From contig CAMWKB010000002.1 in the NCBI GenBank assembly GCA_947174705.1, positions 1 through 64,000 on the forward strand: DNA of 64,000 bases, in the 5' to 3' direction. Each line of letters begins with the position of its first letter. Positions within the stretch are counted from its first letter, which is position 1. Below are positions 48,644 to 57,477 of the stretch, piece after piece. This DNA is from an uncultured Lachnospiraceae bacterium. Its GTDB lineage: Bacteria; Bacillota; Clostridia; Lachnospirales; Lachnospiraceae. Both the position numbers and the translations under genes were made by a program. Below the pieces are notes generated by a model. That model was not told the DNA's origin. It saw only the letters and a program-made list of their open reading frames with translations, and did no database searches.

Positions 48644-48676
48644 CAAAAAAACAGCCGGCCGAAGCCGACTGTTTTT
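48644..48676 (-). terminator. Rho-independent terminator of the S8 peptidase gene
   Basis: aacagccggc-cgaa-gccgactgtt, poly-A on + giving U-run on minus; starts 2 nt after stop codon. Confidence 0.85.
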
Positions 48677-48677
48677 G

Positions 48678-51600
48678 TTATTTATAGTATCTGACCTTTC
48701 CATCTTTAAAGCGTGCAGCATAAACGGTCTTTTTCGCCGTTAGACCTGAACCATCCCGTAGTTTCACGCTAACTGTCATTGTCTGTAATTCATTCGTGTA
48801 TAAAAACATACTAGATGATGGTTTAGTTGTAGTCACTTTACCAGGAATCGGATAAAGATAATAACAACCATCCGCCTCGCTATACTCCTTGTTGAGTCCT
48901 GGATTCTTTCCACCAGACACTGTAACCGTGAAGTAAGGGGGCACATAATTGTACGGATCCGTTGGATCAGCCGGCGTCGCAACCACTACCAAATCGTTAA
49001 CATTGATTTTCTTGAATAACCGCGTAACTTTGAAAGTATACTCATTAGAGATCACACCGCTGCCATCCGCCGCAGACGCTGTGATAATGGCTTCGGAACC
49101 CACACTGGCCTTTTTGTTGGCAGTTACTTTTCCGTTTTTATCCACAGTTAATATAGCTTTATTACTGCTGGACCAAGTAACCTTTTTATCTGTAGGTGTG
49201 CCATAGTTACTGCCACATTTAGCAGACAGTTTTATGCTTTTGCCCTGCGCGATACATCCAATATAACCGTTACTCGAATCACTATAATCTCCATAACTAT
49301 CCGTAGTTCCTATGGTTATTTTTGACATAGGTATATTAACTTTCACTGTGCATGTTGCTTTCTTATTACTGCCATCGGTAGCGGTACAAGTAATAGTAGC
49401 CTTGCCGGGCGCCTTTGCGGTGATATTACCATTTGCATCTACGCTGGCTATAGAAGGTGCGCTACTTGTCCACGCAATCAAGGTATTGTCTACACCAGAC
49501 TTACCCTCTACTTTAGCAGTCAGCTTTCCTGTAAGAGGTGTGTTAGCACTCGCTTTTTTACTAAAGAGCACCATACTCTTAGCGGATAGCGTAATCTTTG
49601 TAATCTCTCCTGATACTATGGTAACCGTATAAGAATTAGAAATGGCTTTGCCACTGTCAACGGCCACAGCCGTCACGGTACAAGTTCCTGATGCACCCGC
49701 TTTTGCGGTCACCTTGCCATTTGCTACAGTTACCTTATCATTGCCTTCCACCTTCCATGTGAGCTTCTTGTTGGAGGCGTTTGCCGGTTTAACTGTCGCT
49801 TGAAGCGTAATCGCTTTCCCAACAGCCACTTTATTCGGACCACTTAAAGTAATACTTGTGACAAGCTGATTTACAGTCACATTACAGGATGCGCTCTTAT
49901 TGTAACCATCGTTGGAGATTGCTTTAATTACGGCTTTACCCGGAGCAAGGGCGGTAATGACACCATTATTGACGGTGGCCACCTTAGTGTTACTGCTGGA
50001 CCAAATCACATCGTCAGCGCCAGGCTCGGAACCATTCTGCGTGGTCACTTTGAGGAAAGATTTCATATCCAGAGTTTTACCCGTATCCAAATTCTGCGCT
50101 TTTACAGTTTTTCCCTGTTTATCCTGAAATGCAATTTTCTTGATGGTTGCACCACCAATCACTTGAAGCTCATAAGTTTCCGCAACACCATTAAAAGTCT
50201 TACCGTCTGCTCCCACAGCTGTGGCAGTAACAGTGTACGTCCCGGTAGAAGTACTAGCCTTCGTTTTTACAGTGCCATTTGAAACGGAAATCCCTGCTGC
50301 CTTCGCCTTATTATCCACAGACCAATTCACTTTTGTAGAAACCGAATAAGCAGGCGTGACATCAGCCGTTAATGCCAGGCTCTTGCCGGGGGCAACACGA
50401 GAGATTCCTGTTTTGGAATTCAATTTCACTCCAGAAGGAATCGGTGTTAAAGTGCATGCCTTAGAAGCAACCTTACTCACCTTACCCGTGACCGGATTCA
50501 GGGCGACAGCCTTTATGGTCACCTTCTTCGCACCCGTTAGTGTAATCGATGCTCCTTCTGTATACTTTTTACCATTTATAAACTCACCGTTCTTATAGGT
50601 AGGATTCTTGCCATCTGTTGTGTACCAGATTTCTACACCTACAGCAGTTTTTGTAGAAAGTGTGGCAGTTACGCTCTCTAGCGTATAAGTCGTACCGGTT
50701 TTAGGTTTTTCCTTGATTGCAATAACCGGAGCATCCGGTGCGGTCATATCCGATGCAATTTTCAATGCACCCGGCAGCCATGTGGTACCTGCTCCCATAC
50801 CGGAACTGGAGCTCTTAGTAGTGGAAGACTTCATTGCAGAGAGAAGCGCATCCACTCTGGCCTTACCTGTTTTTTTACGAATCGATTCATTGGCTGAAAG
50901 AATTACTGCCGCCGTACCTGCAGCTGCAGGGGATGCCTGACTGGTGCCACTCATATAACCATAACCGCTGGGAACCGTAGAGTAAATATGCACTCCCGGG
51001 AAAGACAGCTTCACATTACTTCCATAGTTGGAAAAAGAAGCTCTTGCACTGTTCTGATCCACCGCACCCACGGAAATCGCACCACTGTAGGATGCCGGAA
51101 AGCTATAGGCGTTTGTATCTTCATTGCCTGCAGACGCAAAGACCGCTACACCTCTATTATATGCATTTTTGACTACTTTCTCATAGTCGCCGCTATACAT
51201 AGGGCCACCTAAGCTCATATTAATGATATGGTTACCGTCCGCCACAGCAGCATTAATGGCCCTCATGACATCTGCATTGTCTGCGCCTGCGTTCGCTGAA
51301 GGAAATACACAATAGCCCCTAACCTGAGCATCCGGTGCGATTCCTACACCGCCTTTGCTGTTATCATCTGCTGCAATGATACCTGCCACATGAGTGCCGT
51401 GGGTAGCGTTGTCGTTGTTATACTCTGTGCCGGCTGCCCCGTTAACAAAATTTTTTCCCGCAACAGCATTTGCTGATAAATCCTCATGGTTTCTCTGTAA
51501 CCCTGTATCAATCACGGCTACTTTCACATCCTGACCTTTATAACCCGCCGCCCAAGCATAGCTGGTACCTATGTAGTCATGCTGCCACTGTATGCCAAGG

Positions 51601-52517
51601 CTGGGATCACTAGGTCCTGCCACTGCATTAATTTCGTTCATATCACTGGTGAGATAGTTATAATAGTTAGGCCATACAACGGGCAGCTTGGTATCGGGAT
51701 CTGCTGCGGCAGCCACTGCCAAGGCTACTGTAGCTTTTTTAGGCAGGTTGATTACGGCTACTCCATAAGAGTAGCTGTCTAAATCGCCACCAAAAGCCGC
51801 AGCCACCTGCTCAGCTTCTTCTGTCGTCTCAGCCAGATACACCACCTCGCCAAGTTCGTAAATTCCCTCTGCATCTGGATATTCGTCAACATTTTGGGCA
51901 TATATACTTACTATGTCGCCCACATGCGCAGCCAATACCTTTTTATCTGCCATCTGCGTCGAGGACAATGTATAGCTATCACCTAATCCGGGGAAAATCG
52001 CAAAAGCATCTTCCTCAGAATCTTCTGCCTCAAAGTCCTCTTCTGGAAGTGTATTCTCTGATATTGTATCTTCTGATATGGTATCTTCGGAATCTTCTGC
52101 CTCTTCTAAAGCAGGATCATTCACATCAGAATCTTCTGTTTCTTCCGAAGAATCCTTCGTTTCCTCTGAAGGAGCTTCTATTTCCTCCGAGGAATCTTTG
52201 ATTTCCTCCGAAGTATCTTTGATTTCCTCTTCCGCAGTTCCAGTTTCTCCAGAAGATTCCCCATCTTTGTCTTTCTCCGTCTCGGAAGACTGTTCGGGAT
52301 TTTGTACTTCTTCTGACTCTTTGTCTATTTTTTCTTCTGAAGGCAGCTCGGATGTCCCTGCATCCTCACTTTCCTCAGAAGACTCGTCGTCAGGTGCTTC
52401 AACGAACTGTTCCTCAAGAACAGGTTCTGACGCCGAAGTTGCCAACGCTTCAATTCCCGTTGTATTGAACAACAGTGAGCCGGCCAGCAATAATGACAGT
52501 ATCTTTGTTTTTTTCAT
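48678..52517 (-). CDS. Secreted S8 subtilisin-like serine peptidase with Glu/Ser-rich region, propeptide and C-terminal BIG2-like repeats
   Basis: Signal peptide; Asp 'VAVIDTGLQRNHEDL', His 'HGTHVAGIIAA', Ser 'YMSGTSQASPAAAGTAA'; multiple 'WSSSN..A.V...G.ITA.A.GKATIT' Ig-like repeats. Confidence 0.95.
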   Translation of the reverse strand: MKKTKILSLLLAGSLLFNTTGIEALATSASEPVLEEQFVEAPDDESSEESEDAGTSELPSEEKIDKESEEVQNPEQSSETEKDKDGESSGETGTAEEEIKDTSEEIKDSSEEIEAPSEETKDSSEETEDSDVNDPALEEAEDSEDTISEDTISENTLPEEDFEAEDSEEDAFAIFPGLGDSYTLSSTQMADKKVLAAHVGDIVSIYAQNVDEYPDAEGIYELGEVVYLAETTEEAEQVAAAFGGDLDSYSYGVAVINLPKKATVALAVAAAADPDTKLPVVWPNYYNYLTSDMNEINAVAGPSDPSLGIQWQHDYIGTSYAWAAGYKGQDVKVAVIDTGLQRNHEDLSANAVAGKNFVNGAAGTEYNNDNATHGTHVAGIIAADDNSKGGVGIAPDAQVRGYCVFPSANAGADNADVMRAINAAVADGNHIINMSLGGPMYSGDYEKVVKNAYNRGVAVFASAGNEDTNAYSFPASYSGAISVGAVDQNSARASFSNYGSNVKLSFPGVHIYSTVPSGYGYMSGTSQASPAAAGTAAVILSANESIRKKTGKARVDALLSAMKSSTTKSSSSGMGAGTTWLPGALKIASDMTAPDAPVIAIKEKPKTGTTYTLESVTATLSTKTAVGVEIWYTTDGKNPTYKNGEFINGKKYTEGASITLTGAKKVTIKAVALNPVTGKVSKVASKACTLTPIPSGVKLNSKTGISRVAPGKSLALTADVTPAYSVSTKVNWSVDNKAKAAGISVSNGTVKTKASTSTGTYTVTATAVGADGKTFNGVAETYELQVIGGATIKKIAFQDKQGKTVKAQNLDTGKTLDMKSFLKVTTQNGSEPGADDVIWSSSNTKVATVNNGVITALAPGKAVIKAISNDGYNKSASCNVTVNQLVTSITLSGPNKVAVGKAITLQATVKPANASNKKLTWKVEGNDKVTVANGKVTAKAGASGTCTVTAVAVDSGKAISNSYTVTIVSGEITKITLSAKSMVLFSKKASANTPLTGKLTAKVEGKSGVDNTLIAWTSSAPSIASVDANGNITAKAPGKATITCTATDGSNKKATCTVKVNIPMSKITIGTTDSYGDYSDSSNGYIGCIAQGKSIKLSAKCGSNYGTPTDKKVTWSSSNKAILTVDKNGKVTANKKASVGSEAIITASAADGSGVISNEYTFKVTRLFKKINVNDLVVVATPADPTDPYNYVPPYFTVTVSGGKNPGLNKEYSEADGCYYLYPIPGKVTTTKPSSSMFLYTNELQTMTVSVKLRDGSGLTAKKTVYAARFKDGKVRYYK

Positions 52518-52562
52518 TTTTTCTCCCTTCTCTTTCTTTTTCTATCCTTTGCGGTCATGTGT

Positions 52563-52976
52563 TTACTGTTCCGTATGAAGTTTGTCTTTATAGTTAGGTG
52601 CCAATGTGGGATAATCATTTTCCTCTCCCATGCTGATGAGCTCCTGTACATCCTTGTCAGTTACATAGGTAGCTACTCCATAGGAATAACTATCAAGTTC
52701 AATGCCGTACAAATCAGCAATCTTCTCTGCCTCTTCCAGATCATCCGCCAAGGCGGTCAATCGTGTCGTTTCCTCAGATTCGTCTTCCGCAGAGTTTCCG
52801 TCAGAAGACGAGACCGTCTCGCTCTCAGAAATCGGGAGAACAATTAGCTCTCGTTCTGTATTATCACGTTCCAGCTCAGTTATTTCGACAAGTTCATGTT
52901 TTCTGCCGCAGCCACTGAGTCCTATTATTGAGATTAGAATGAGGCCAATTGTGACAGCAACTCTTTTTATTTTCAA
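52563..52976 (-). CDS. Lipoprotein homologous to the propeptide of the adjacent subtilase
   Basis: TTG start with 'GGGAGGTGA' RBS; lipobox 'IGLSGC'; 'EEAEKIADLYGIELDSYSYGVAT' matches subtilase 'EEAEQVAAAFGGDLDSYSYGVAV'. Confidence 0.8.
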   Translation of the reverse strand: MKIKRVAVTIGLILISIIGLSGCGRKHELVEITELERDNTERELIVLPISESETVSSSDGNSAEDESEETTRLTALADDLEEAEKIADLYGIELDSYSYGVATYVTDKDVQELISMGEENDYPTLAPNYKDKLHTEQ

Positions 52977-53236
52977 GTTTTCACCTCCCAGTGCAAATAA
53001 AAGTCTCAATATATAGTCTTGCAAGTGCTGACAACACACTTATTGACTAACACCAATAAATTTTATACAAATTCAAACTGCCTCCCTGCTGCTCAAGCCG
53101 CTCCGGCAAATCTTACTATTCCCGAGTTTGCGGATCAAATCTAATAAGCAACAGCTATATGTGTAATACAAATTTTACAGCCATACAGTTCCTTTTGTCA
53201 ATATGCACAATCATCAATAAAAACAATATTTTTCTG

Positions 53237-54568
53237 TTACTTCGCCATAATCCGCTTCACTTCCTCCACAGCACGTTCCAACTGGTTATCCACACCCTTA
53301 TCATAATACGCATCTGCATCGAACTCACATTCGATATCCGGCTCAATTCCAATATTATGAATATTATTTCCCTTAGGTGTATAATATGCGCTGACTGTAA
53401 GTTTAAGGGCGGTTCCGTCTGTAAGCGGCAGGATACGCTGTACTATGCCTTTTCCAAAAGTCTTGGTCCCAACCAGGGTTCCTTTGCCATAATCCTTAAC
53501 GGCGCCGGCAAGAATTTCAGATGCGCTGGCGGAATTGCCGTTTACCAATACAACTAACGGTATCTTTAATTCATTATCGCCATCGCAGCTGTATTCCGTC
53601 CGCTTGCCGGAGCGGTCCTCGGTATATACTATAAGTCCCTCGGGAAGAATCTGCCTAGCAATATCCACTACTACGGAAAGGCTTCCTCCCGGATTGCTGC
53701 GCAGGTCAAGTATCAGACCCTTTGCCTCATTTCCTTTTATAACTGACAGCGCTTCCACAAACTGGTCATAGGTCACCTCATCAAACTCCGTTATCTGAAT
53801 ATAGCCTATCCCATTGTCCTTCATTTCATATTTAACAGTCGGGGATTCTATCTGCTTTCTGACAACATCCATTTCCAGATAATCCTCTTCACCCTCTCTG
53901 TAAATCGTAAGATGTACGATTGTCCCTTCTTCTCCCTTAATCATTGCGACAATCTCTGATAATTCTAAACCTTGGGCAGGTTCTCCGTCTACCATATAAA
54001 TAATGTCGTTTTCACGAAGTCCTGCTTCCTGCGCAGGCGTATTCTCTATGACTCCGCTGATTTTGCCGTAGCCGGTTCTGCTGTCAATGCTCACATACGC
54101 ACCGATGCCGTAATATACGCCTTCCGTATCCCGCATCAGTTCTTCCCATTCTTCCTGTGTATAATAAACGGAATATGGGTCGCCTAAGGAATCCACCATT
54201 CCGGCGTACATTCCTTCTATCATGTTATCGGTATTAATATCTTCTTCGTTATAATAATACTCATCAATAACTTTCTCTATTGATTCTAACTTGGTAATCG
54301 AATCATCATTGACTACGTTCTGCGCGGATGCTCCCTCTGCGCTGGTCTGTTTACTTCCTCTCAAATGCAAAATATCAGCGACTTTGACACCTGCATAAAC
54401 ACTGCCTGCCACAAGTACACTGATTACAATTCCGGTAAGCATACCGACAAGAAACATTCCCTTAGTCTGATGCTGTTCCTGTTTCGAGCTATCTGGATAC
54501 AAATTATTTTCAGCTCCCTGATTCATTCCACTATTATTACTACTATATCCATAATTATCCAAAATCAT
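53237..54568 (-). CDS. ctpA: S41-family C-terminal processing peptidase
   Basis: TM, PDZ 'YYGIGAYVSID...VIENTPAQEAGLRENDIIYMVDG', catalytic 'VLVNGNSASASEILAGAVKDYGKGTLVGTKTFGKGIVQ'. Confidence 0.95.
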   Translation of the reverse strand: MILDNYGYSSNNSGMNQGAENNLYPDSSKQEQHQTKGMFLVGMLTGIVISVLVAGSVYAGVKVADILHLRGSKQTSAEGASAQNVVNDDSITKLESIEKVIDEYYYNEEDINTDNMIEGMYAGMVDSLGDPYSVYYTQEEWEELMRDTEGVYYGIGAYVSIDSRTGYGKISGVIENTPAQEAGLRENDIIYMVDGEPAQGLELSEIVAMIKGEEGTIVHLTIYREGEEDYLEMDVVRKQIESPTVKYEMKDNGIGYIQITEFDEVTYDQFVEALSVIKGNEAKGLILDLRSNPGGSLSVVVDIARQILPEGLIVYTEDRSGKRTEYSCDGDNELKIPLVVLVNGNSASASEILAGAVKDYGKGTLVGTKTFGKGIVQRILPLTDGTALKLTVSAYYTPKGNNIHNIGIEPDIECEFDADAYYDKGVDNQLERAVEEVKRIMAK

Positions 54569-54604
54569 TCATCTCCATTGACATCTATTTCAACTTATAA
54601 AGCT

Positions 54605-55813
54605 TTAGCTTATATAATTCCAAGGACTCACATAGCTTCCGTTAAGACGCACGCCGAAATGCAAATGATTACCGGTTGAACGTCCGGTACTTCCTACAGC
54701 TGCAATTTTCTGACCTTTAGTAACTGTCTGGCCACTGGATACATACAGCGCGGAGGCATGCATGTATATTGTATACAATCCATCTCCATGGTCTATCATA
54801 ATGTAATTACCCATAGATGAACTGTACGCAGCGGCTACTACATCCCCATCATACGCCGCCAGAATCGAAGAACCATACGGCGCTGACAGATCAACACCGT
54901 TGTGGAATTTCTCGATTCCAAGTGTCGGGTGCATACGATTTCCATATTGGTCTGAAATCCTCGTATATGATGGACAGGGCCATGCAAACATGCCGCCGTC
55001 ATAAGTTCTTGCCGCAACATTTTCCGCAGCAAGTCTCGCCTTTTCTTCCGCAACTGCCTTTTCCAATGCGGCTATTTCGGCATTCTGGGAAGCAATCTCG
55101 TCTTCATACTCCTTAATTGCAGCTTCTTTGGTGGAAATATCCGAAGACAAGGAGAGAAGCTGCGCTTCCTTCTCTACAATTAAAGTATTTATATTTTTTT
55201 CTTCTTCCTTGACATTAACCCTTGCTTCCTCAAGCACTTCTTTCTGTGCCTCAAGTTCTTCTTTACATACTGCAATAAGCTCAGCAGTCTTTACATATTC
55301 ATCTAACTGGTTGGCGTCGTAAGCAACTAACGCTTCGATGTAGTCTGCCTTATTCATCATGTCGGTAATGTTTTCAGCCGAGAAGAACAGATTCATATAA
55401 AGCATGTTACCCTGTTCGTACATGAACTGGATACGTTTCTTCATAGCAGCATACTGTTCTTCCTGCTGCAAAATGGCATCATTTAATTCTTCGGTCGTCA
55501 CTTCGATTTCCACGGTCTTTTTATCAATTAATTCATTATATTCAGCAATTCTCTCCTGAATGTTATCCAGTTCCGTATCCAACTGTGTAACATATGTAGT
55601 AAGGTCATTTTTGGACTTCTCAAGCCCTTTCTTTATTGCTTCTATGTCGCTTAATCCGTTCTTAAGCTTCTCAACCTCTTTCCTTGCCTCAGCTATTTCC
55701 GCCTCTTTTTCCTTAATGCTGTCGTAATCGTCCGCAGCAGCGATATTAGAAGGAAAAACAAACGCAACAGCGATACATATTAATATTAATAATGCCCTCT
55801 TTAAATATTTCAT
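54605..55813 (-). CDS. Murein hydrolase activator/M23 peptidase with N-terminal coiled coil
   Basis: Signal peptide, coiled coil, M23 'RMHPTLGIEKFHNGVDLSAPYGSSILAAYDGDVV...GNYIMIDHGDGLYTIYMH...STGRSTGNHLHFGV'. Confidence 0.93.
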   Translation of the reverse strand: MKYLKRALLILICIAVAFVFPSNIAAADDYDSIKEKEAEIAEARKEVEKLKNGLSDIEAIKKGLEKSKNDLTTYVTQLDTELDNIQERIAEYNELIDKKTVEIEVTTEELNDAILQQEEQYAAMKKRIQFMYEQGNMLYMNLFFSAENITDMMNKADYIEALVAYDANQLDEYVKTAELIAVCKEELEAQKEVLEEARVNVKEEEKNINTLIVEKEAQLLSLSSDISTKEAAIKEYEDEIASQNAEIAALEKAVAEEKARLAAENVAARTYDGGMFAWPCPSYTRISDQYGNRMHPTLGIEKFHNGVDLSAPYGSSILAAYDGDVVAAAYSSSMGNYIMIDHGDGLYTIYMHASALYVSSGQTVTKGQKIAAVGSTGRSTGNHLHFGVRLNGSYVSPWNYIS

Positions 55814-55850
55814 CTAAGCTCACTGCCTTTCGCCAGCCATTTACAAAATG

Positions 55851-56747
55851 CTACACTCTAAGATGTTTTCTTACTGTAACAATACTGCCAAGGAAACCTA
55901 TTCCCACTCCGATTCCAAGTGAAACCGGGGTAAGTACATTGAAAACCTCCTGTACAGTCAGAAAACTCAAAAAATTTATAAGCGCGGGAAATCTCTCTAC
56001 TATGTAGTCCATTACCGTATTATACAAAAAATAGATTATTCCAAGCGGAATACCTGCGCCAATCAGTCCTATGATCATACCCTCAATTACAAACGGCGAT
56101 CTGACAAAGAAATCTGTTGCACCTATATATTTCATAATATTAATTTCTTCTTTTCTTACAGAAATACCAATAGTAACAGTATTGCTTATAAGGAAAATCG
56201 AAACCGCAAGCAAAATAGCAATAATTCCAATCGAAACATAAGCTATTAAAGCATTTATACCGGTCAAGGTAGTGGCGGCTATTTCGGAATAATTTACCTC
56301 CCTGACTCCGGATATGGACTTAAGATATGTTACGAGAGCCGACTGCATGGAAACATCGTTTAAATTAATCTGGTAGTTTGCGGACTGAGGAATGGGATTT
56401 TCCGTAAAACCGTCTGCATATTCACGAAGATAATCCGTCTTAAAGCTCTCCCATGCTTCATCTGCCGAAACAAAGTGGATACTTGCCACCTCCGGTCTCT
56501 TAGCTATCAATTGACCGATTTCTTCTATTCTGGAATCCTCAAGCCCTTCATCAAAGAAAACGCTTACCCCAAGCACCTGCTCGGCATTTCTTACAATATG
56601 TTGAAAATTGGTAATAACCGCATAGAACAATCCAAACAAAAATAAACATGAACTTATAGTTGCAATGGAAGCAAGCGTAAACGATTTATTTCTAAAAAGA
56701 TTACGAAAGCCCTGACGGATTGTATAGAATAACGTGCTAATCCTCAT
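55851..56747 (-). CDS. ftsX: Cell division protein FtsX
   Basis: Four TMs, '[22 protein letters not shown]', adjacent to ftsE. Confidence 0.95.
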
Positions 56748-57477
56748 CTATATATCCTCCTTTTTCCTCATCGCTTACTATAACTCCTTTTTTAAGCGTA
56801 ACTACCCTCTTCTGCATAGCGTTTACGATTTCCCTGTTATGCGTAACGACAAGTACCGTAGTTCCGTTTTCGTTAATCTGTTCAAGGAGTTTCATAATTT
56901 CCCATGAATTCTTAGGGTCAAGATTACCCGTAGGCTCATCCGCCAGAAGGATAGTCGGATTATTAACTAACGCCCTTGCCAACGCCACTCTCTGCTGCTC
57001 ACCACCGGAAAGCTGCCTGGGTCTGGCCTTGTACTTACCGGCAAGTCCCACAATCGCAAGTATGCTTGGCACGTTCTTTCTGATTTCCTTATTTGACTTT
57101 TGTACAATCCTCTGCGCAAAGGCCACATTCTCATACACATTTCTATCCTTGAGCAGTCTGAAGTCCTGAAATACAATTCCTATATTTCGCCTGAATTTAG
57201 GAATCTTCCGGTGTTTTATTCTGGCAAGGTCATAACCCATCACATTGATATCACCGCTGGTTATTGTCAACTCTCTGAGCAAAAGCTTGATAAGGGTGGA
57301 TTTGCCGGAACCACTGTCGCCTACTATAAAAACAAATTCCCCTCTGTTAATATGAAGATCGACGTCCTTAAGCGCCGGTGCGCCCGTTGAATATGCCTTA
57401 CTGACATTGTTTAAGGAAATAATTTCTTTATTGTCTGACGCGGTCCTTTTAGTTCTCCTATTTGCAGACACATCCAT
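56737..57477 (-). CDS. ftsE: Cell division ATP-binding protein FtsE
   Basis: '[18 protein letters not shown]', '[33 protein letters not shown]'. Confidence 0.95.

Follow-up and report, generated by a model that had tools for sequence, protein, structure and literature searches.

A membrane-anchored relative of a subtilase propeptide, encoded beside its subtilase, as a candidate tethered inhibitor

Why should a small lipoprotein that resembles a subtilase propeptide be encoded next to a subtilase that carries such a propeptide itself? The question arises from a 64,000-nt stretch of DNA from an uncultured Lachnospiraceae bacterium, here called the window, in which an ORF of 137 aa is read on the minus strand from a TTG start codon at 52976 to a TAA stop codon at 52563. 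The Shine-Dalgarno sequence GGGAGGTG lies directly 5' of the TTG and provides a good ribosome-binding site. The translated protein carries the lipobox L20-S21-G22-C23 (LSGC), and a Pfam scan placed no protease or other domain in the chain that holds its propeptide-like domain. An earlier note on this DNA had located the lipobox protein upstream of an S8 peptidase and co-directional with it, which is correct, and had put 46 nt between them, which is not: the gap is 45 nt long (52518-52562). In the peptidase, a secreted subtilase, a signal peptide, a Glu/Ser-rich region, a propeptide and the catalytic domain are followed by Fn3-associated and Big_2 repeats. The Glu/Ser-rich region forms a long acidic stretch (residues ~30-170) between signal peptide and propeptide, and the linker of the lipoprotein is similar to it in composition. 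The features of the locus are the following:

53172..53201, minus strand: promoter-like site TTGACA-18-TAAAAT (11/12), 5' of the lipoprotein gene; consensus scan only
52911..52976, minus strand: lipoprotein signal peptide, residues 1-22, with the TTG start codon; translation and Shine-Dalgarno sequence
52908..52910, minus strand: lipobox cysteine Cys23 (LSGC) of the lipoprotein; sequence
52770..52904, minus strand: acidic/serine-rich linker of the lipoprotein, residues 25-69; nearly unconstrained, dN/dS ~0.82 against the relative in locus L061
52566..52769, minus strand: propeptide-like domain of the lipoprotein, residues 70-137; BLASTP, hhalign, AlphaFold2, dN/dS ~0.05
52593..52595, minus strand: Asn128 of the lipoprotein, counterpart of the helix-capping Asp71 of the subtilisin BPN' propeptide; Asn/Asp conservation
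52566..52592, minus strand: C-terminal tail YKDKLHTEQ of the lipoprotein, predicted to enter the active-site cleft; tail lengths and likeness to propeptide junctions
48678..52517, minus strand: secreted S8 subtilase, 1279 aa; Pfam scan, triad motifs DTG, HGTH and GTS present
51642..51857, minus strand: subtilase propeptide, residues 221-292, homologous to the lipoprotein domain; BLASTP, hhalign, PF22148 in 9/13 homologous segments
50859..51536, minus strand: S8 catalytic domain, residues 328-553; PF00082, E 1.6e-47
48652..48667, minus strand: terminator-like hairpin just 3' of the subtilase stop codon; consensus scan only

Homology and predicted fold of the lipoprotein domain

The last ~68 residues of the lipoprotein match the propeptide when lipoprotein and subtilase are compared by BLASTP (E 3e-8), and a profile-profile comparison of the two with hhalign gives a probability of 99.4% (E 3.7e-21 over 74 columns). 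The 15 identities in a core block of 23 residues, reported in the earlier note, were found again on recheck. Chance similarity can be rejected, as none of 1000 shuffles of the lipoprotein reached the observed alignment score of 98 (shuffled mean 53.7, maximum 83). The description of the lipoprotein as a version of the neighbouring subtilase's propeptide is thus upheld by homology. The similar segment of the subtilase also lies where it had been placed, inside the propeptide: because it is found just before the S8 domain and because 9 of 13 such homologous subtilase segments match PF22148 (Fervidolysin_NPro-like, a subtilase N-terminal prodomain), it can be taken as a genuine predicted propeptide. 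The window subtilase's own segment matches PF22148 weakly (E 0.04). The Pfam prodomain models gave no match for the window lipoprotein itself; three free-standing relatives (in L101, L102 and L103) match PF22148 with 27.3, 25.8 and 29.6 bits, above the cut-off of 21. PF18492, the family of the Aeromonas sobria protein ORF2, did not match the window lipoprotein and gave one sub-threshold match (E 0.095), to a small-protein relative in L100. Lipoprotein matches outside the true family (E above ~1e-5) were left out, as they look like shared signal-peptide or low-complexity similarity.

AlphaFold2 predicts a beta-alpha-beta-beta-alpha-beta arrangement for the lipoprotein domain, with a core pLDDT of 85-93; as propeptides made up five of the ten alignment rows, this model and the homology are not independent lines of evidence. 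The best fold match in the PDB, with two aligners, was ORF2 (best Foldseek E 0.026, TM 0.55), and the VIA Z of 6.5 for the fold match is of a size that common folds can also yield. Further fold matches included the prodomains of furin/PC1-3, subtilisin and fervidolysin (3cnq_P, 1spb_P and 9fid_F among those listed), with modest scores. No relative was found among PDB sequences, whether the query was the lipoprotein domain or one of the two profiles. With modest fold scores and propeptide rows in the alignment, the models support a propeptide fold without proving it. For the subtilase propeptide together with the catalytic domain, AlphaFold2 reached a pLDDT of 36 with 5 sequences.

Pairing with the subtilase, genomic sites and origin

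In relatives, 52 small proteins were mapped (43 at first and nine added later), and every one is co-directional with such a subtilase and adjacent to it. The nearest subtilase lies downstream for 40 of them and upstream for 12, at a median distance of 38 nt among the first 43. Across 77 genomes of the genus, the small protein occurs in 37 of the 38 that have the propeptide type in the large frame and in 0 of the 39 others (Fisher 3e-21, with shared ancestry left uncorrected); in the sole exception, G352, the subtilase is cut off by the contig end. The pairing for which the earlier note had proposed a search in relatives is thus well supported. A recognisable propeptide of their own is present in 65 of 67 subtilases, including that of the window, the other two being fragmentary in the assembly. 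This rejects a replacement of a lost propeptide, as in the case of ORF2, and because nearly all subtilases keep their own, the lipoprotein would be an additional copy acting in trans.

The fold match and the gene order bear on another reading, that of an external foldase, in which the lipoprotein would fold the subtilase in trans after export and inhibition would be a side effect, as for ORF2 and its protease ASP. ORF2 is encoded adjacent to ASP, is needed for ASP activity and inhibits ASP with an IC50 of 84 nM, its C-terminus lying at the catalytic site (PMC5638518), and most of the pairs described here have the small gene on the upstream side, so that its product would be made before the subtilase. 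However, ASP lacks a propeptide whereas nearly all subtilases here keep one, and a pure foldase has no obvious need for the membrane anchor found in every copy. We regard a foldase as possible but doubtful, and an inhibitor is favoured over it because nearly every paired subtilase retains its propeptide; sequence separates the two roles only in part.

Among the loci fetched, the pair was found at three or more genomic sites: 25 loci have it behind hrcA-grpE-dnaK-dnaJ (L070, L076, L079, L082, L085, L086, L088, L090, L094, L095, L099, L101-L103, L126, L127 and others), five have it opposite a PurL-like gene, and in the window and L100 it is flanked by ctpA and uvrB. The names DnaK, DnaJ, HrcA, GrpE and PurL are those that we take to apply from reading the sequences and do not come from database matches. 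As these sites are unrelated, the pair stays together when its location changes. At the hrcA-grpE-dnaK-dnaJ site, the genes downstream of the module are often those for a DUF3048 lipoprotein, prmA, a VanZ-like gene and rsmE. Six loci (L076-L079, L126, L127) encode a large secreted protein, as predicted from its sequence (up to ~1750 aa), after the module. In the window (53237-57477) and in L100, ftsE-ftsX-M23 peptidase-ctpA lies directly upstream of the pair. A link with this ftsEX-ctpA neighbourhood was dropped, since only L100 shares it among the loci fetched and most copies lie elsewhere.

Tandem arrays of the type subtilase-small-subtilase-small are also seen, for example in L070 and L094; L070, L086, L094, L095, L096 and L099 each have two or three subtilases in tandem, separated by one or two small proteins. 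Such arrays are a possible source of diversifying specificity. A protease immunity system could be envisaged, in which each of the tandem, diversifying subtilases would have its own tethered cognate inhibitor. At the cell surface this would neutralise enzyme from the cell itself or from its neighbours, recognition would be specific to the paralogue, and free-standing propeptides would have more than one origin; we consider this extension unlikely. Distances between small proteins track those between their partners (r 0.83 for the propeptides and 0.85 for the catalytic domains, reached in 0 of 5000 permutations); this shows co-inheritance of the pair and not binding.

When 43 small domains and 50 propeptides were placed in one tree (68 columns), 40 small proteins grouped together and those of L101-L103 fell among the propeptides. 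This points to two or more origins of free-standing propeptides. This evidence is moderate because the alignment is short and the program flagged joined long branches; a separate origin of L101-L103 is supported by their PF22148 matches above the cut-off. Members of the second group are transmembrane-anchored, lie downstream of their subtilase and look closer to propeptides than to the group of the window, which again suggests a separate origin. Its free-standing propeptides are:

L101:7372-7782
L102:9813-10292
L103:818-1234
L126:5480-5917
L127:5909-6550

In an order-wide sample, clear matches to the small protein came only from the family of the window, and in a phylum sample no small-protein match was found besides the window. 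PF22148 had matches in 74 of the 299 genomes of the phylum sample, with no other free-standing copy found; the three shortest frames with PF22148, upon inspection, were broken or cut-off subtilases.

Membrane anchor, conserved residues and proposed mode of action

A lipobox is present in 14 of 43 homologues and a transmembrane segment in nearly all others; L067 is unclear, and L086, scripted as a lipobox, was read instead as a transmembrane segment. All copies checked begin with a hydrophobic N-terminal anchor, and the predicted membrane anchoring of the propeptide-like protein in the earlier note is therefore borne out by one or other of these signals. Across the 31 pairs compared, small proteins with a lipobox are partnered by one subtilase type, and those with a transmembrane segment by the other types. 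A comparison of the window with L061 shows strong purifying selection on the domain (dN 0.042, dS 0.878, dN/dS ~0.05) and an almost free linker (dN 0.28, dS 0.34, dN/dS ~0.8). By these substitution rates, a constrained domain sits on a linker that is free to vary.

The propeptide of subtilisin BPN' ends at residue 77, six residues past Asp71. When aligned by motif, the position equivalent to Asp71 is Asn or Asp in 43 of 43 small proteins and in 48 of 50 subtilase propeptides; L128 and L129, among the nine proteins added later, lack Asn/Asp there. In the BPN' propeptide this residue has a helix-capping role (PMC6993865). The C-terminus falls exactly six residues past the helix-cap Asn/Asp in 7 of the 43 small proteins and at nine residues in 13; in L130, L131, L133 and L134, from other genera, it falls at six residues with Tyr or Phe last. 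The window tail resembles propeptide junctions in relatives (YLHTD, YLYTD). As this tail (KLH-TEQ) runs three residues past the expected propeptide end and others are much longer, up to 39 residues, the position of the C-terminus is only suggestive and tail docking may vary.

These features also bear on two further explanations. The lipoprotein might be an adaptor that retains the protease at the cell surface in its mature and active form. Such a role is proposed for PrcB, a small lipoprotein of the PrtP operon, which binds PrtP, is required for its expression and would anchor the complex (PMC8167434). The pairing and the anchoring of the lipoprotein would fit such a role; against it, a domain homologous to a propeptide, with a conserved helix-cap residue and tail, implies binding at the active site, and we hold the adaptor to be improbable. 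It might otherwise be a substrate-like sensor that is cleaved by the subtilase and releases a signal, or a duplicate with no function of its own. Since KLHTEQ, the tail of the window protein, continues beyond the expected cleavage site, a cut there is conceivable; the strong purifying selection on the domain and the fixed pairing of 52 copies argue against decay, and no released part is conserved. A decoy, or an idle duplicate, seems highly improbable.

We think it probable, from these comparisons of sequences and gene neighbourhoods, that the lipoprotein is a membrane-tethered cognate inhibitor that keeps the subtilase inactive at the producer's membrane. The proposal in the earlier note, of a membrane-anchored inhibitor or foldase that acts in trans and protects the producer, is supported in part. 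In known cases, a propeptide or a free-standing mimic of one blocks its subtilase by binding to the catalytic domain and inserting its tail into the cleft (PMC6993865; PMC10580911). The free-standing copy would be held on the outside of the cytoplasmic membrane by its lipid and a flexible linker of ~45 residues; its globular domain would dock on the subtilase as the propeptide does, and its C-terminal tail would lie in the active-site cleft. The newly exported protease would then be held inactive near the membrane until it moves away, and the producer cell would be protected from its own subtilase. Such a tethered safety catch is probable because the propeptide has been copied and because the two genes lie side by side in all 52 cases. 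The inhibitor possibly also aids folding of the subtilase. One objection to an inhibitory role is that a second inhibitor may be superfluous where the subtilase carries a propeptide itself.

Comparison with known systems

ORF2 (the ASP chaperone; PDB 3wqb, 2mk4) is likewise bacterial, free-standing and encoded next to a subtilase. It differs in that its protease lacks the propeptide that the subtilases here keep, its gene lies downstream of that of the protease, no membrane anchor is described for it in PMC5638518, and it has no detectable sequence match to the window lipoprotein. POIA1, the yeast proteinase B inhibitor and Arabidopsis SPI-1 (MEROPS I9), as well as TgMIC5 and Plasmodium SUB1-ProM, are also small free-standing propeptide mimics, and SUB1-ProM, whose gene neighbours subtilase genes, is a selective inhibitor of one of the enzymes (PMC6993865). 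All of these are eukaryotic and none is described in PMC6993865 as membrane-tethered; the three I9 inhibitors are described as having no significant sequence similarity to propeptides, whereas here the homology to the partner's propeptide is clear. The PF22148 family is matched by propeptides of these subtilases and, above the cut-off, by three free-standing relatives. PrcB of Treponema denticola dentilisin is likewise a small lipoprotein that shares an operon with a subtilase and binds it; it promotes rather than blocks expression of the protease, and the accessible part of PMC8167434 reports no propeptide homology. TipC, which gives Streptococcus intermedius immunity to TelC, is likewise an outward-facing, membrane-anchored inhibitor in a Gram-positive cell (PMC6193138), but its fold and target are unrelated and the likeness is one of arrangement only.

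The open-access literature searched yielded no bacterial tethered propeptide-like family that stands next to an intact propeptide. If the proposal is true, bacteria have a family of membrane-tethered propeptide-type inhibitors that work alongside an intact cis-propeptide, which suggests a way for cells to shield their membrane proteins from the aggressive subtilases that they export; the tandem arrays would be a natural test of how propeptides gain specificity for one protease. Combined, these comparisons set free-standing propeptide-like inhibitors in eukaryotes and one bacterial external chaperone, ORF2, as what is known; what appears to be new is a tethered bacterial family standing beside an intact cis-propeptide.
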